Shown in pieces: positions 3,667 through 24,294 of a DNA stretch of 24,294 bases. Location of the stretch: positions 1 to 24,294 of the IMG/VR virus record IMGVR_UViG_3300042514_000052. The stretch is one strand, 5' to 3'. This stretch comes from a virus. The notes under the pieces are model-generated. The model did not search any database, had not been told where the DNA came from, and saw nothing but the letters and a program-made list of their open reading frames with translations. Both the position numbers and the translations under genes were made by a program. How positions within the stretch are numbered: position 1 is the first letter of the stretch; each line of letters begins with the position of its first letter.

Positions 3667-4078
3667 ACCAAGAAACTTAGATAGTCCTGAACAATTATAC
3701 GAACTATTTAAAAAATACAAAGAAGACGTAAAAGCGAACCCGAGAATAAAAAGCGTATTCGGAGGTAAAGAGTTTGAAGAAAGAGCCGAGCCACTTGAAA
3801 GACCTTTAACAATGGAAGGTTTCGAGATATTTTGCTGGGATATTGTAGGATGCGTTGAAGACTATTTTAAGAATACGAATAAAGCGTACGAAGATTTTTC
3901 TCCTATCTGTTCACGTATACGCAAAGAAATACGCGAAGATCAAATAACGGGCGGTATGGTAGGACAGTATAACGCAAGCATTACACAACGTTTAAACAAC
4001 TTAAAAGAGCAAGTTGAACAAACGAATATCGAACAACCTTTATTTAAATTAAGTGATAATAACGACAGCAATTCGTAA
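3650..4078 (+). CDS. terS: Terminase small subunit (gp3-like DNA-packaging protein)
   Basis: A 142-residue protein placed directly before the large terminase. The N-terminus GRPRNLDSPEQLYELFKKY and the block 'RPLTMEGFEIFCWDIVG' resemble the DNA-packaging protein gp3/terminase small subunit family common in Bacteroidetes prophages. The C-terminal 'MVGQYNASITQRLNNLKEQ' is also typical. The protein should recognise the packaging start and load the large subunit. Its last 26 bases overlap the large terminase gene. Confidence 0.8.
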   Translation: MAKVGRPRNLDSPEQLYELFKKYKEDVKANPRIKSVFGGKEFEERAEPLERPLTMEGFEIFCWDIVGCVEDYFKNTNKAYEDFSPICSRIRKEIREDQITGGMVGQYNASITQRLNNLKEQVEQTNIEQPLFKLSDNNDSNS

Positions 4079-6065: not shown

Positions 6066-6513
6066 TTATTACACGATACTTGACACGCTTAAAAGCAATT
6101 TAGATAACGATCCGTTTATTAACACGGTAACGCAAGGCGATATTTTTGCGGTTGACTTGGCTAAACAAACTATATTTCCTTTGTGCCATATTATAGTAAA
6201 CAATGCAACTTTTGAAAGCAATATAATTCGTTTTAACGTAAGCATTATGGCGATGGATATTGTAAACAAGTCAAAAGACGAAGACACAAATGTATTTGAC
6301 GGTAACGATAATGAGATTTACGTACTAAACACAATGCTATCGGTATTGAATAGGTTATACGAAGAACTACGTAGAGGTGATTTATTTACTGATGCTTTTC
6401 AAGTAGACGGTAACCCTACATTAGAAGCGTTCGCTGAAAGGTTCGAGAATTATTTAGCTGGCTGGACAATGACCTTTGATATTTTAGTTCCTAATGAAAT
6501 GACTGTTTGTTAA
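6058..6513 (+). CDS. Putative tail terminator/neck protein
   Basis: A 151-residue protein between the chaperone gene and an HK97 gp10-like gene. The sequence is mixed alpha/beta: an N-terminal helix (YYTILDTLKSNLDNDPFINT), a strand-rich centre (FPLCHIIVNNATFES, IIRFNVSIMAMDIV) and a helix with VLNTMLSVLNRLYEELRRG. Size, order and the loop containing KDEDTNVFDGND fit the tail-terminator type of neck protein seen in siphoviruses, but no diagnostic motif proves it. It overlaps the -1 frame chaperone product at its 5' end and the next gene by one base (TAATG). Confidence 0.55.
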   Translation: MANYYTILDTLKSNLDNDPFINTVTQGDIFAVDLAKQTIFPLCHIIVNNATFESNIIRFNVSIMAMDIVNKSKDEDTNVFDGNDNEIYVLNTMLSVLNRLYEELRRGDLFTDAFQVDGNPTLEAFAERFENYLAGWTMTFDILVPNEMTVC

Positions 6514-8101: not shown

Positions 8102-10428
8102 GGCAAGTACAACTTTATATTGAAGGTCAAAAGGTTGAACTATTTGAAGACGAACAAATTAATGTTACTTCGAGCGTTCAAAATATTAGCGATATTTCAA
8201 AAGTATTTACGGACTTTTCGCAAAGCTTTACCGTTCCCGCTTCAACGGTTAATAATAAAATATTCAAACATTTTTACCAATCCGATATTGGTGATCCGTT
8301 AGACCCTACTACGTTATTCGATTACAATATTCGTAGGAGCGCATTATTAGAAATTGACTTAACTACTTTTAGACGTGGTAAAATATCAATTGAAAAGGCG
8401 AATATAAAAAATGGCTTACCTGAAAACTATCAAATAACTTTTTACGGTGAAATACGAACGCTAAAAGATTTATTCGGTGAAGATAAATTAAATACATTAG
8501 ATTTAAGCGCCTACGAATTTACATTTAGCGCTACGGAAATTTACAATAGAATAACGGACTTAACAACGGATTACAGCGTTAGGTATCCTTTAATTGCAAG
8601 TAGCAGATTATGGCAATACCACCACGGTACTGAAGACGTAACAAACAATGCGCACGCAATACATTACGATGAATTATTTCCAGCTATAAAAATAAGTAGG
8701 TTATTTCAAGCTATTGCAAATGATTACGGCGTTACTTTTACGGGAACGTTTTTAAGTGATACAAGGTTTAACGAAGTTTTTTTATACGGCAAAAATACAA
8801 CGGAATACACTTGGATAAGTGAAGCAAGTACTATTGATATTGACCAAATAACGGCAACGGTAGTTGATCCGAGTTTACCGAACCCCGCGAATTACGTAGA
8901 TATATACGGAAGCAAAATAAACATTGAAGAACTTTCTGGAGTTTATGCACACATTATAAGCTTTGATATTTTAAGTCAATCGGTTGCGGGTACATGGTAC
9001 ATTGATATTTTTCAAGACGGTAATTACTATCAAACTGTGCAAGGTACTACGACGGGAGTTTTCGGAAATGTAACTTTTATAAATACAAGTGGCTTGGATA
9101 CGGACGTAACTTTTCAATTACGTGCTGATGCAATAATGGATGTAGATATGAATATTATCTACCAAATAAACGGAAACAACGGTGTAATTAATTACGCTCA
9201 AATGAGTACGGTTACAACTTCGCTTTCAGGTAACGTAAATATAAATAACGTTTTACCCGATATAAAAGTTAGTGACTTCTTTTCGGGCGTGTTAAAAGAG
9301 TTTAATTGTACGTGCGTAGCTACTGATGTAAACACTTTTGAAATACTACCTTTAGAAGATTGGTATTCACAAGGCGCTATTGTAGATATTACGCAATACA
9401 CGGATGTAGATTCAATTGATATTGAACGTATTAAGTTATATAAAAAAATAGCTTTTAAATACCAACAAAGTGAGTCCTTTGCAAACAAGAATTATTTTAA
9501 AACATATAACCAACAATACGGAGATTTAGAATATCAATACAATTACGACGGCGACGAATACACAATTGAAGTTCCTTTTGAAAATTTATTGTTTCAAAGG
9601 TCAATAGATAATTCAGGTAATTACGCTATTTTCGGTTATACGTTAAACGAGAATTTTCAAGCGTACACGCCGAAGCCTATATTACTTTATTTGTACGGTG
9701 AAAGTGACCCTTTGCCACATGATATTAAATTCTATACTGGAGCAACGCATTTAAACATTGATACGTTCGCTTTATTTGGTCAAGACCTTACATATCAAAA
9801 CACGAAATATAGTTTAAATTTCGGTGCTGATAATTCTATAATTCATTTAGAAACAATTCAACAAGGCTTATTCGCTGAATATTATTTTTCGTATTTAATT
9901 AATTTGTTCAACCTTAAGAATAGGCTGGTTCACGTAAAGACGAATTTACCTGTTTCTTTACTTACGAACCTTCAATTAAATGATCGTCTTATTATAAGAG
10001 ATAAACGCTATATAATAAACGAAATGAAAAGCAACCTAAGTACTGGACAAGTTGACTTTAGTTTGTATTTAGACTTTCGACCAATTACAAGCGGTAGACC
10101 TTTAGTGCCAAGTTTTGACGCACAATGTTTAGACGTTCCGATTACGTTTGTGAACGGTGCGGTTAGTGCTGATATAACAACAACGTTTGGCGGTGTTACA
10201 ATTACCCCGAGTACAATAACAAGTAGTCAATCTATTACGGTTTGTATTCCTGAAAACACGAATTCACCGCAAAACATATTAGCCGAAAACTCGGATAGCT
10301 TAATTACTGAAGAATTTCAAAACTTAATAACTGAAAATTCAAGCACGCAAGTTATAATTTTAACGGTTACTTACACTTTAGGCAACGGGCAACAAGTGGC
10401 AAATCAAATAACAATATTACAAGAATGA
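8098..10428 (+). CDS. Large tail-tip/baseplate hub-like protein
   Basis: A 776-residue, mostly beta-structured protein. The N-terminus (VQLYIEGQKVELFEDEQINV, then SDISKVFTDFSQSFTVPAS) resembles large tail proteins of Bacteroidetes siphoviruses. A middle part (about 260-380) resembles an inserted beta-sandwich or carbohydrate-binding module (GVYAHIISFDILSQSVAGTW). Residues 400-500 contain DFFSGVLKEFNCTCVATDVN, a tail-hub-like segment. The C-terminus is Thr/Ser-rich with DITTTFGGVTITPSTITSS. The position between tail and tape-measure genes suggests a central tail hub or distal tail protein that may carry receptor-binding modules. Domain boundaries are by eye. Confidence 0.6.
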   Translation: MRQVQLYIEGQKVELFEDEQINVTSSVQNISDISKVFTDFSQSFTVPASTVNNKIFKHFYQSDIGDPLDPTTLFDYNIRRSALLEIDLTTFRRGKISIEKANIKNGLPENYQITFYGEIRTLKDLFGEDKLNTLDLSAYEFTFSATEIYNRITDLTTDYSVRYPLIASSRLWQYHHGTEDVTNNAHAIHYDELFPAIKISRLFQAIANDYGVTFTGTFLSDTRFNEVFLYGKNTTEYTWISEASTIDIDQITATVVDPSLPNPANYVDIYGSKINIEELSGVYAHIISFDILSQSVAGTWYIDIFQDGNYYQTVQGTTTGVFGNVTFINTSGLDTDVTFQLRADAIMDVDMNIIYQINGNNGVINYAQMSTVTTSLSGNVNINNVLPDIKVSDFFSGVLKEFNCTCVATDVNTFEILPLEDWYSQGAIVDITQYTDVDSIDIERIKLYKKIAFKYQQSESFANKNYFKTYNQQYGDLEYQYNYDGDEYTIEVPFENLLFQRSIDNSGNYAIFGYTLNENFQAYTPKPILLYLYGESDPLPHDIKFYTGATHLNIDTFALFGQDLTYQNTKYSLNFGADNSIIHLETIQQGLFAEYYFSYLINLFNLKNRLVHVKTNLPVSLLTNLQLNDRLIIRDKRYIINEMKSNLSTGQVDFSLYLDFRPITSGRPLVPSFDAQCLDVPITFVNGAVSADITTTFGGVTITPSTITSSQSITVCIPENTNSPQNILAENSDSLITEEFQNLITENSSTQVIILTVTYTLGNGQQVANQITILQE

Positions 10429-17310: not shown

Positions 17311-19084
17311 TATACACGTTTTAGAATTAAGTTCTTACACAACGCCCGTAATTCAAGAGTCTAAACGAGATGCTTGGGTTGAATTTGGAGTAGATAATAA
17401 CTACTTTCAATTTATTATAGATAGGTACGTTAATTCGACTACTAATTCAAGCGTAATAAACAATGTAAGCCGTTTAATTTACGGTCGTGGGTTAAGTGCT
17501 TTAGATGCAAGTAAAAAGCCTAACGAGTACGCTCAAATGATGGCTTTATTCAATCCTGATTGTATTCGTAAAATTGTACTTGACAGAAAAATGTTCGGAC
17601 AGTTTGCGATGCAAATACATTATTCACAAGATCACAAAAGAATTTTAAAGGCTTATCATATACCCGTGAATTTATTACGTGCGGAAAAGTGTAATAAAGA
17701 CGGAGAAATAGAAGGGTATTATTATTCGGATAATTGGTTAGACGTAAAAAAATACGCACCTAAAAGAATACCAGCTTTCGGATATTCAAACGAACAAATA
17801 GAGATTCTTTATTCTAAGCCGTATGCGGTAGGAATGAAATACTACGCTTTGCCTGATTACCAAGGTGGTTTACCGTATGCAAAGTTAGAAGAAGAAATTG
17901 CTGATTATTTAATTAATGAAGTTCAAAACGGTTTTTCGGGAACGAAAGTAGTAAACTTTAATAACGGCGTTCCTACTGAAGAACAACAAAGTATAATTAA
18001 AAGCAAGGTGTTAAGCCAGTTAACGGGTTCGAGAGGACAAAAAGTTATTGTAGCTTTTAACAACAATCAAGAAAGTAAAACAACGGTAGACGATTTACCG
18101 TTAAACGATGCGCCTGAACATTACACTTATTTAAGTGAGGAATGCGTTAAAAAAATTATGTTAGCGCATAACGTTACAAGTCCGTTATTATTCGGTTTAG
18201 GTTCTGCAAATGGTTTTAGTTCAAACGCTGATGAATTAAAAAACGCTTCTATTTTGTTTGATAACATGGTTATTAAGCCTATTCAAGACCAAATTATAGA
18301 AGCTTTTAATAAAATTTTAGCGTTTAACGGAATTACATTAAAGTTATTCTTTAAAACGTTACAACCGTTAGAATTCGTTGATTTAGAAAACGCACAAAAC
18401 GAAGAACAAGTAGCTGAAGAAACGGGAACGGAATTAAGCAAAGTAAACACGGAATTAGAAGAAATATTAAACGAAGTTGATGCTAACCAATTAGGCGAAG
18501 GCTGGGTAATGGTAGACGAACGAGAAGCTTCAGAAAATGACGAAGAATTAGATTCGCAATTAATTAAAGCTGAATTAGATTTAGAGCCTAAAACAACGCT
18601 TTTAAGCCGTTTAATTAACCTTGTTCAAACTGGTAACCCTCAACCCGATAAAAAGAGCGCACAAGATAAAAAAGTAGGAGATTTAAAATACTTTAAAGTT
18701 CGTTATAAATACACGGGAAATAAAGCACCCGACCGTGACTTTTGTAAAGCAATGATGTCAAAAGAAAATAGGTTGTTTAGAAAAGAAGATATTGATGCAA
18801 TGAGTAGAAGGGCGGTTAATCCGGGTTTTGGCGAAGGCGGTGCAAATACGTACGATATATTTCGTTTTAAAGGTGGGCCACGATGTCACCACAAATTTTC
18901 AAGGGTAACTTTTATGTTAGATTTAAACGCTATTGAAAAAGGTTATTCTGAAATAGGAACAAGAGCGGCAGAAATTAAAGGATATAAAGTAACGAACCCT
19001 TACGAAGTTTCAATATACCCTAATAATTTACCTTTAAAAGGGTTTAGCCCGCGAAATAAAAATTTACCTTCAGACGTAATATAA
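17303..19084 (+). CDS. Portal protein with extra C-terminal domain
   Basis: A 593-residue protein. Residues 1 to about 360 are portal-like: WVEFGVDNNYFQFIIDRYVN, SVINNVSRLIYGRGLSALDA, CIRKIVLDRKMFGQFAMQIH, 'YQGGLPYAKLEEEIADYLIN', and near 280-330 'MLAHNVTSPLLFGLG' followed by 'GFSSNADELKNASILFDNMV'. The portal dodecamer forms the DNA channel and anchors terminase and connector. A linker of about 90 acidic residues follows. The C-terminal domain (about 465-560) has KVRYKYTGNKAPDRDFCKAM, FRKEDIDAMSRRAVNPGFGE and FRFKGGPRCHHKFSR, a Cys/His-containing module like those ending some head-morphogenesis proteins. The length is about 150 residues above a minimal portal. Confidence 0.85.
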   Translation: MNNIHVLELSSYTTPVIQESKRDAWVEFGVDNNYFQFIIDRYVNSTTNSSVINNVSRLIYGRGLSALDASKKPNEYAQMMALFNPDCIRKIVLDRKMFGQFAMQIHYSQDHKRILKAYHIPVNLLRAEKCNKDGEIEGYYYSDNWLDVKKYAPKRIPAFGYSNEQIEILYSKPYAVGMKYYALPDYQGGLPYAKLEEEIADYLINEVQNGFSGTKVVNFNNGVPTEEQQSIIKSKVLSQLTGSRGQKVIVAFNNNQESKTTVDDLPLNDAPEHYTYLSEECVKKIMLAHNVTSPLLFGLGSANGFSSNADELKNASILFDNMVIKPIQDQIIEAFNKILAFNGITLKLFFKTLQPLEFVDLENAQNEEQVAEETGTELSKVNTELEEILNEVDANQLGEGWVMVDEREASENDEELDSQLIKAELDLEPKTTLLSRLINLVQTGNPQPDKKSAQDKKVGDLKYFKVRYKYTGNKAPDRDFCKAMMSKENRLFRKEDIDAMSRRAVNPGFGEGGANTYDIFRFKGGPRCHHKFSRVTFMLDLNAIEKGYSEIGTRAAEIKGYKVTNPYEVSIYPNNLPLKGFSPRNKNLPSDVI

Positions 19085-23498: not shown

Positions 23499-23586
23499 AG
23501 AAGCAAAAATGGCTTTACTACTTTTCACGGTAGGAATAGTATTAATAGGAATAGGATTAATAAAAAAACATGGAGAAGATAATTGA
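23491..23586 (+). CDS. Tiny single-helix membrane protein
   Basis: A 31-residue ORF with an 8-base overlap upstream and a 17-base overlap downstream. It is a short acidic start (MPEEAKMA), one hydrophobic helix (LLLFTVGIVLIGIGLI) and a charged end (KKHGEDN). The composition is that of a single-pass membrane peptide. It is short, so translation is not certain. Confidence 0.4.
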   Translation: MPEEAKMALLLFTVGIVLIGIGLIKKHGEDN

Positions 23587-23962
23587 ATACATAAAAGCAA
23601 ACGGTTTAGACGGTATTAAAAAGGATCGTAACAGTTGTTACCAGCGTTATTACTTGTACAATATACTACGTGAACACGGATTAACTTTGTACGAAATAGG
23701 GGATATGTTTAACAAGTTACATTGTACGGTAATTTACGGTATTAGGATGCATAAAATGTACGAAGAAATGAATGATGTACTTTATAAAGAGCATACTCGA
23801 ATGGTTCGTGTTTTGTTCGACGTACCCGCTAACGGTTTTAGTTTAGAACACGATGTATTAAAATGCAATACCGTACGTAAGTTAGAATTAATTAAGTTAA
23901 GAATAAGATGTAAATACTATGAAAAAACGAATGAAGAAACGCCGCAACTTGACACGGTTTAG
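23570..23962 (+). CDS. DnaA domain IV-like helix-turn-helix protein
   Basis: A 130-residue basic protein. Residues about 25-68 (YQRYYLYNILREHGLTLYEI, GDMFNKLHCTVIYGIRMHKM) resemble the DnaA C-terminal DNA-binding domain, including the conserved sequence of helix, IGxxF turn and a DHSTV-like recognition motif (here LHCTV). There is no ATPase domain. The remaining C-terminal part is basic and Cys-containing. It may bind origin-like DnaA boxes to direct or hinder replication, or act as a transcription factor. Position among early-type genes fits either role. Confidence 0.6.
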   Translation: MEKIIEYIKANGLDGIKKDRNSCYQRYYLYNILREHGLTLYEIGDMFNKLHCTVIYGIRMHKMYEEMNDVLYKEHTRMVRVLFDVPANGFSLEHDVLKCNTVRKLELIKLRIRCKYYEKTNEETPQLDTV

Positions 23963-24054: not shown

Positions 24055-24070
24055 TAAATTTGTATATTTG
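24055..24070 (+). promoter_or_regulatory. Tandem -7 boxes before the ParB-like gene
   Basis: Two exact TAnnTTTG boxes lie end to end: TAAATTTG (24055-24062) and TATATTTG (24063-24070). A TTG at 24046-24048 is 14 bases from the second box, closer than usual. Initiation near 24070-24076 would give a leader of more than 100 bases before the ATG at 24182. Confidence 0.6.
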
Positions 24071-24076
24071 TATATA

Positions 24077-24161
24077 GTTCGTCTTCACATTATAGAACTA
24101 AAAGAAGTTATTAAAGCCCTTTAATGAATTCGGACGTGAAGACCCGAAGGAGTTAAGGGGT
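24077..24161 (+). ncRNA. Structured leader RNA or small RNA before the ParB-like gene
   Basis: An outer stem GTCTTCAC/GTGAAGAC (24081-24088 with 24136-24143, 8 bp) encloses a long inner hairpin at 24104-24131. That hairpin is built on ATTAAAGCCCTTTAAT, extended by further pairs around one mismatch. A third possible stem, CCC/GGG (24143-24145 with 24158-24160), is followed by TTTT. GTTC/GAAC (24077-24080, 24095-24098) could add a pseudoknot. No ORF covers this segment. It may be a regulatory 5' leader, attenuator or separate RNA. Confidence 0.5.
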
Positions 24162-24181
24162 TTTATATTTAAAAAAAAATT

Positions 24182-24294
24182 ATGATAAAAAAAATTAGTG
24201 AAATTGTATTAAACGACAATCGTAGAAAAGTAGATGCGGCGAAAGTTAAAGAACTTGCTGAAAGCATAAAACAATTAGGTTTAATTAACCCGAT
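24182..24294 (+). CDS. ParB-like N-terminal domain protein (3' partial)
   Basis: Only 37 residues are visible before the window ends: ISEIVLNDNRRKVDAAKVKE followed by LAESIKQLGLINP. This is the typical start of the ParB/Srx N-terminal domain (N-x-R pattern, then L-x-x-S-I-x-x-x-G-L-x-x-P). In phages such proteins are partition-like factors or accompany DNA methyltransferases. The ATG follows an A-rich run, and the long structured leader upstream suggests dedicated control. Confidence 0.75.
   Translation, partial: MIKKISEIVLNDNRRKVDAAKVKELAESIKQLGLINP

Follow-up and report, generated by a model that had tools for sequence, protein, structure and literature searches.

A phage leader RNA in which a 5′ hairpin kisses a terminator-like hairpin: a candidate transcription attenuator in phages of Flavobacterium-type bacteria

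The window analyzed here comprises all 24,294 bases of a virus record. Its last 240 bases encode an RNA leader with an 8-bp kissing helix between two loops, that of a 5′ hairpin (P1) and the apical one of a terminator-like hairpin (P3/P4). The leader is real, far beyond chance. We favor reading it as a transcription attenuator that acts in cis on phage early and replication genes, an interpretation to which we assign a probability of roughly 0.6. Leaders of this kind precede early genes in many viruses of Flavobacterium-type bacteria, and the pairing of a 5′ loop with a terminator seems to make them an on/off gate of a sort not described before. To our knowledge, gene control in Bacteroidota phages has been little explored. 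If the reading is correct, a loop–loop contact to a terminator would represent a new form of termination control as well as a compact, modular part. The question is testable now, since the leader is found in cultured Flavobacterium phages, namely FL-1 (by covariance model), FCL-2 (by architecture) and the FCV-1 group (by eye).

A kissing helix joins the 5′ hairpin to the terminator-like hairpin

All features described below lie on the plus strand of the window. Hairpin P1 (24076–24099) pairs AGTTC (24076–24080) with GAACT (24095–24099) around a 14-nt loop that holds kissing strand 1, GTCTTCAC (24081–24088). A conserved single-stranded linker, AAAAGAAGTTATTAAA (24100–24115), leads to the terminator-like hairpin (24116–24161), in which P3 pairs GCCCTTTAA (24116–24124) with TTAAGGGGT (24153–24161), P4 pairs TTCGG (24129–24133) with CCGAA (24144–24148), and the apical loop presents kissing strand 2, GTGAAGAC (24136–24143). 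P1, the kissing strands, P3 and P4 are all supported by covariation. With pseudoknots left out, the window leader folds more stably than expected from shuffling its dinucleotides (z = −2.93), a stability reached by 2 of 200 shuffles, and when both strands of the window were scanned with our architecture detector, this leader was the sole match. No tRNA or tmRNA was found in the window. The AAGGAG at 24147–24152 lies partly in a stem and partly in a conserved GGA(G/T)TT internal loop.

An exact 17-mer from the leader picked out four further leaders, nearly identical to it and located in other phage contigs, together with one unrelated chance match. The genes that follow these four begin MLEIKEEF…, compared to MIKKISEI… in the window, so the leader is conserved independently of the coding start. 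The element of contig L002 differs from that of the window by one base while the downstream proteins start differently. Neighbor-protein searches were made with the MT-A70-domain fusion of L002 and with a second protein of that contig, which we named RecA-like in the present analysis (80 loci each), and nhmmer yielded many divergent copies of the leader. Covariance model R1 was built from 18 sequences and comprises P1, P3 and P4, with the kissing strands left out; after a wider pattern scan, it gave at least 132 retained matches in phage contigs, at least 76 of them distinct. These counts were made after dropping partial matches (L017, L161, L240), weak ones (L065, L115, L134, the second in L130, L152, two in L236, the second in L207 and in L214, L215), one at a contig end (L251) and duplicates (two in L087, L088, L157). 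When whole records were searched, 15 of 27 virus records contained one or two R1 matches each. The match in cultured phage FL-1 has an E-value of 1.9e-12; this copy was reached only by protein search, architecture detector and covariance model, and blastn with the window end and two relatives against 50,697 phage records produced no real match. In cellular genomes, a search limited by its pattern gave 58 pattern matches and no covariance-model match below E 0.15, and four genomes searched directly gave no leader among the 150 candidates scored in each, out of several thousand from a first look.

Covariation was measured on an alignment of 78 matches (76 distinct rows), with P1, the kissing helix, P3 and P4 supplying the pairs. 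Standard pairs filled 98.4% of 1975 cells, compared to 75.4% after shuffling, and the covariation score was 0.656, compared to 0.202 for shuffled and at most 0.122 for slid alignments. The earlier note, which was made from the sequence of the window alone, had held that a lack of compensatory changes in homologues would speak against the leader; among the 76 distinct rows, both sides had changed in 23 of 26 pairs. Compensatory changes affected 5 of 5 pairs in P1 (100% of cells paired), 6 of 8 in the kissing helix (96.7%), 8 of 9 in P3 (98.7%) and 4 of 4 in P4. The kissing-helix pairing arose even though the kissing strands are absent from R1, the model that made the alignment. In a structure-blind ranking, the top 19 column pairs all belonged to P1, the kissing helix, P3, P4 or an adjacent extension of P3, the last of these accounting for one pair. 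No alternative or antiterminator pairing was present among the strongest covarying column pairs.

The spacing between these parts is nearly constant: the linker measures 15–16 nt in 73 of 78 relatives, kissing strand 1 is separated from the 3′ arm of P1 by 6 nt in 72 of 78, and P4 is separated from kissing strand 2 by 2 nt in 77 of 78. Such spacings would fit a compact intramolecular kissing complex. With respect to what had been read from the window at first, a leader is present at 24055–24181, where both TAnnTTTG boxes and a fold were found. The pairing of 24081–24088 with 24136–24143, taken for an 8-bp outer stem, holds as a pairing but is a loop–loop helix, and the 5′ hairpin AGTTC/GAACT that surrounds GTCTTCAC had gone unnamed. 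The inner hairpin proposed on ATTAAAGCCCTTTAAT was not borne out: its ATTAAA/TTTAAT pairs are missing from the strongest covarying column pairs, and GCCCTTTAA engages in helix P3 instead.

Promoter, T-tract and placement before genes

Approximately 106 leader bases separate the TAnnTTTG boxes from the start of the ParB-like gene at 24182. The box at the family-conserved spacing is the second of the two, the −7 promoter box TATATTTG (24063–24070). The letters of the window contain a further match, TAAATTTG (24055–24062), which has no counterpart in the upstream sequences of some relatives; the tandem boxes described in the earlier note are thus present in the window but in only part of the family. 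Among relatives, a TAnnTTTG box ends 3–6 nt 5′ of P1 in 74 of 76, most often at a distance of 5 nt (65 of 76), and the background frequency of such a box is 98 in 3800 random 30-nt windows. According to passages of PMC6847099 and PMC9723704, Flavobacterium promoters carry TTTG/TANNTTTG, with 4–5 nt from box to start. The box spacing and this published distance place the predicted 5′ end of the RNA at the foot of P1 (24075–24076).

At the other end of the element, the 3′ side of P3 abuts a T-tract, with a T frequency of 0.87–1.0 at positions +1 to +6 and 0.70 at +7, falling thereafter. A T-rich tract (at least 6 T in 8 nt) ends 76 of 76 elements, compared to 290 of 3800 background windows. In the window, the tract TTTTATATTT (24161–24170) is weaker than in the relatives and is interrupted, as it is in the FCV-1 group. 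The weak terminator suspected from the window alone is therefore weak there but clear in the family.

An ORF starts 4–25 nt beyond the model end in 74 of 76 elements, with a median of 22 nt; the distance of 4 nt found for six of the 76 may stem from spurious upstream ATGs. The ATG of the ParB-like gene lies 17 nt beyond the end of the modeled element in the window. No TAnnTTTG box occurs between element end and gene (0 of 76). The hairpin and U-tract accordingly sit between the promoter-inferred start site and the first start codon, which is the layout of an intrinsic-terminator attenuator leader. Downstream genes encode MT-A70 fusions, DUF6291 proteins, one NUMOD4-HNH protein and others without a clear Pfam family. 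The ParB-like gene of the window (24182–24294) is cut by the contig end after 37 codons, which alone match no Pfam family; it probably encodes a ParB_N/MT-A70 fusion like that of contig L050, whose protein matches PF02195 and PF05063.

The contig begins inside an ERF gene (1–427) and ends inside the ParB-like gene. In L002, by comparison, the MT-A70 fusion is at 1462 and an ERF-like gene at 6351, so that an early region of approximately 5 kb seems to be missing from the window and its phage genome to be incomplete. The last listed ORF of at least 50 aa ahead of the leader, at 23570–23962, encodes a small protein with a weak match, under the curated cut-off, to the C-terminal helix-turn-helix domain of DnaA (PF08299, E 1.9e-4).

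Two further arrangements were considered and rejected. For a leader-peptide attenuator, the ORF from a conserved ATG varies in length (10 codons in 31 of 76 elements, 4 in 28 of 76, 2 in 10 of 76, with the remainder differing again), and there is no conserved short ORF. For an antisense promoter over the leader, TAnnTTTG boxes, the only kind of promoter counted, were found in 9 of 75 elements, compared to 450 of 2280 background windows.

The kissing architecture beyond the R1 family

To look beyond R1, we took the upstream regions of 148 MT-A70-fusion homologues, of which 147 were long enough and 92 had a terminator called by script; these fell into 26 sequence clusters. The interior of the terminator had a perfect complement of at least 7 nt in the preceding 85 nt in 19 of 26 clusters, compared to 45 of 650 swapped combinations, although some clusters are related to one another, so that the 26 are not fully independent and the swapped figure is raised. 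Seven of the 26 clusters failed this loop-match test; in one of them, L035, the hairpin called by the script differs from that chosen by eye. The cluster test is a less biased version of one on 18 hand-chosen leaders, in which, with the bias of choosing examples, 17 of 18 had a match of at least 7 nt of their own, compared to 6 of 306 swapped. In a shuffle control on hand-chosen and likewise biased examples, an equally good match arose in 1 of 60 shuffles for L037 and in 2 of 60 for L069.

A group of 22 sequences, designated type 4, combines P1, a 7-bp kissing helix formed by 8-nt loops, a further hairpin and a strong terminator. Pairing in this kissing helix extends to 100% of cells, with both-side changes in 6 of 7 pairs. 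R1 gave nothing at E 1 or better in type 4 loci L039, L041, L047–L049, L051 and L075, and sequence similarity between type 4 and type 1 is not evident from the sequences compared; the conserved single-stranded blocks of type 1 have no counterpart in the type 4 sequences compared. That one tertiary contact recurs in sequence-unrelated leaders is an unusual case of architecture outliving sequence.

The architecture detector, which requires box, P1, loop complement and terminator, was applied to 120 of the gathered loci and returned 95 matches (68 distinct), compared to 5 (4 distinct) on reversed sequence. In cultured phages, it identified FCL-2 37475–37582 and FL-1 18920–19022, each upstream of an annotated gene. 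The FCL-2 copies in nine records are at least 99% identical and thus offer no natural covariation. Five records of the FCV-1 group, read by eye, showed a different loop pair, GTAGAGAG/CTCTCTAC. Several phages carry two leaders with different loops before different genes.

Several additional observations were made in these scans. A further leader group with kissing loops of the GTTACGG/CCGTAAC type lies 12 nt before ORFs beginning M..EIWKDV.GYEGLYQ (L130 5086, L184 8415 on the minus strand, L209 2697, L229 5908 and L232 7069, both minus, L089 3827 and L101 7100); a similar ORF in L238 is NUMOD4-HNH. In GC-rich phages L078, L079, L080 and L086, apparently outside Bacteroidota, a long complement between terminator loop and upstream sequence (14 nt in L079) seems to precede an MT-A70 fusion. 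The detector also matched Riemerella phage vB_RanS_PT15 (L417) at 8176–8318 and FL-1 (L416) at 3691–3799, with complements of 12 and 8 nt; these two are unproven, since the reversed nulls gave 2 and 1 matches.

Proposed function, alternatives and known systems

In the mechanism that we propose, host RNA polymerase would start at the TAnnTTTG promoter and the RNA would begin at the base of P1. Eight nucleotides of the P1 loop pair with the apical loop of P3/P4, a hairpin that runs into a U-tract approximately 20–26 nt before the start codon. P1, the kissing helix and P3/P4 are mutually compatible and, given the near-fixed linker lengths, would assemble into one compact complex while the terminator leaves the polymerase. 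By default, transcripts would stop at the U-tract and the gene would be expressed only upon read-through. From the observed structure and placement we infer regulated termination at this site, with an efficiency that the kiss may set. Since no alternative antiterminator fold covaries, the expected switch is a factor or an RNA that targets either the kissing complex or the polymerase, rather than refolding in cis. A broader proposal, which we find doubtful, is that Bacteroidota phages share an undescribed class of device in which a 5′ hairpin of the nascent RNA kisses the apical loop of a terminator, sequence turning over completely while the architecture is kept, with leader-specific loop codes for each early gene. 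Such codes could act in trans, so that accumulated leader RNA might report phage dosage or confer RNA-based immunity to related phages.

The same structure might instead protect the mRNA or enhance its translation from the 5′ end, the U/A-rich stretch being a ribosome landing site without any termination. The element does sit at the inferred 5′ end, the stretch up to the ATG is A/U-rich, and passages of PMC6847099 report that mRNA structure close to the start codon tunes translation initiation in Flavobacterium. However, a sharp T-tract against the hairpin base in every one of the 76 elements suits the need of a terminator rather than a landing site, and the pairing with the terminator loop would be left unexplained, which makes this alternative unlikely. 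We also regard as improbable a stand-alone phage small RNA of approximately 90 nt that acts in trans, the gene being expressed by some other read-through. Promoter, compact fold and U-tract end are all complete, and the sub-threshold Rfam matches of the type 4 leader are mostly terminator-ended small RNAs, but the short, box-free interval between 3′ end and ORF start (at most 25 nt in 74 of 76) argues against it, as does the unchanged position that highly dissimilar leaders occupy ahead of one and the same gene. Of the options raised in the earlier note (attenuator, protein-sensing leader, separate RNA), the compensatory changes, the terminator-like end, the fixed place before starts and the lack of an Rfam match at threshold favor a structured leader acting in cis as an attenuator; it might sense a protein.

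A leader resembling the put RNA of phage HK022 would have the kissing complex bind the elongating polymerase and make it resistant to terminators, its own included. Such a role requires no alternative fold, and the leaders lie right after phage early promoters, much as put, according to the abstract of PMC9378689, acts in early transcription. That abstract mentions for put no terminator of its own with a loop engaged in the fold, and the conserved single-stranded blocks of type 1 are not seen in type 4; we consider this quite improbable. Least probable, and by our estimate highly so, is that the loops pair chiefly in trans between leader copies (dimerization or dosage sensing), with the intramolecular pairing secondary. 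Covariation cannot separate pairing within an RNA from pairing between copies, and in the cases listed, phages with two leaders carry different loops before different genes. Near-constant linker lengths nonetheless fit one folded molecule, and phages with two confirmed leaders are few.

The attenuator reading was compared with described systems. None of 4227 Rfam 15 families matched at the gathering cut-off in the window or in 14 relative loci, where sub-threshold matches alone occurred; this is the search that had been suggested as a check of novelty. Titles and abstracts on structured RNAs and leaders of Flavobacterium phages, on kissing loops, attenuation, pseudoknots and intrinsic terminators, and on FCL-2 transcriptomes, a scope that excluded preprints and most subscription papers, contained no such leader, and the main text of PMC8040213 has no occurrence of ParB or pseudoknot. 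The leader looks to be of the attenuator type, with a kissing-to-terminator architecture that we did not find described in the literature covered.

Classical attenuators and many riboswitches are expected to have a mutually exclusive antiterminator; a classical two-state attenuator was rejected here, as no such fold appears among the strongest covarying pairs. The preQ1, fluoride and ZTP riboswitches likewise combine a pseudoknot with a terminator in a 5′ leader, but the present leader has no Rfam match at threshold and no competing antiterminator covariation, and the genes behind it are phage early genes rather than those of a metabolic pathway. The rep genes of plasmids pT181 and pIP501 are controlled by antisense-dependent attenuators, and RNAI and RNAII of ColE1 form kissing loops. 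Kissing loops and attenuation before replication genes are common ground with these plasmids, whereas here the pairing partners lie in one transcript and antisense boxes are not enriched. The c4 system of phages P1 and P7 is one that we take to be a close known system, alongside the CI RNA of satellite phage P4. In phage P4, passages of PMC4825925 describe premature termination, under short RNA complementarities of the same leader, that keeps replication genes off; the CI RNA/seqA–seqC leader thus resembles ours in RNA-controlled premature termination before phage replication genes, but it involves a processed antisense RNA, whereas here a 5′ hairpin loop joins the loop of an intrinsic terminator approximately 50 nt away. 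HK022 put, as described in the abstract of PMC9378689, is similarly a structured RNA of phage early transcription; it suppresses termination by binding the polymerase, whereas the present leader carries a terminator-like hairpin and a kissing helix.

A minor observation concerns the MT-A70 fusion itself (L050 2323–3570, L002 1462–2613, window 24182–24294), which appears behind kissing leaders with exchanged N-terminal domains. The ParB_N domain of L050 resembles the 37 residues of the window and the N-terminus of L002 differs, while the C-termini are approximately 93% identical.
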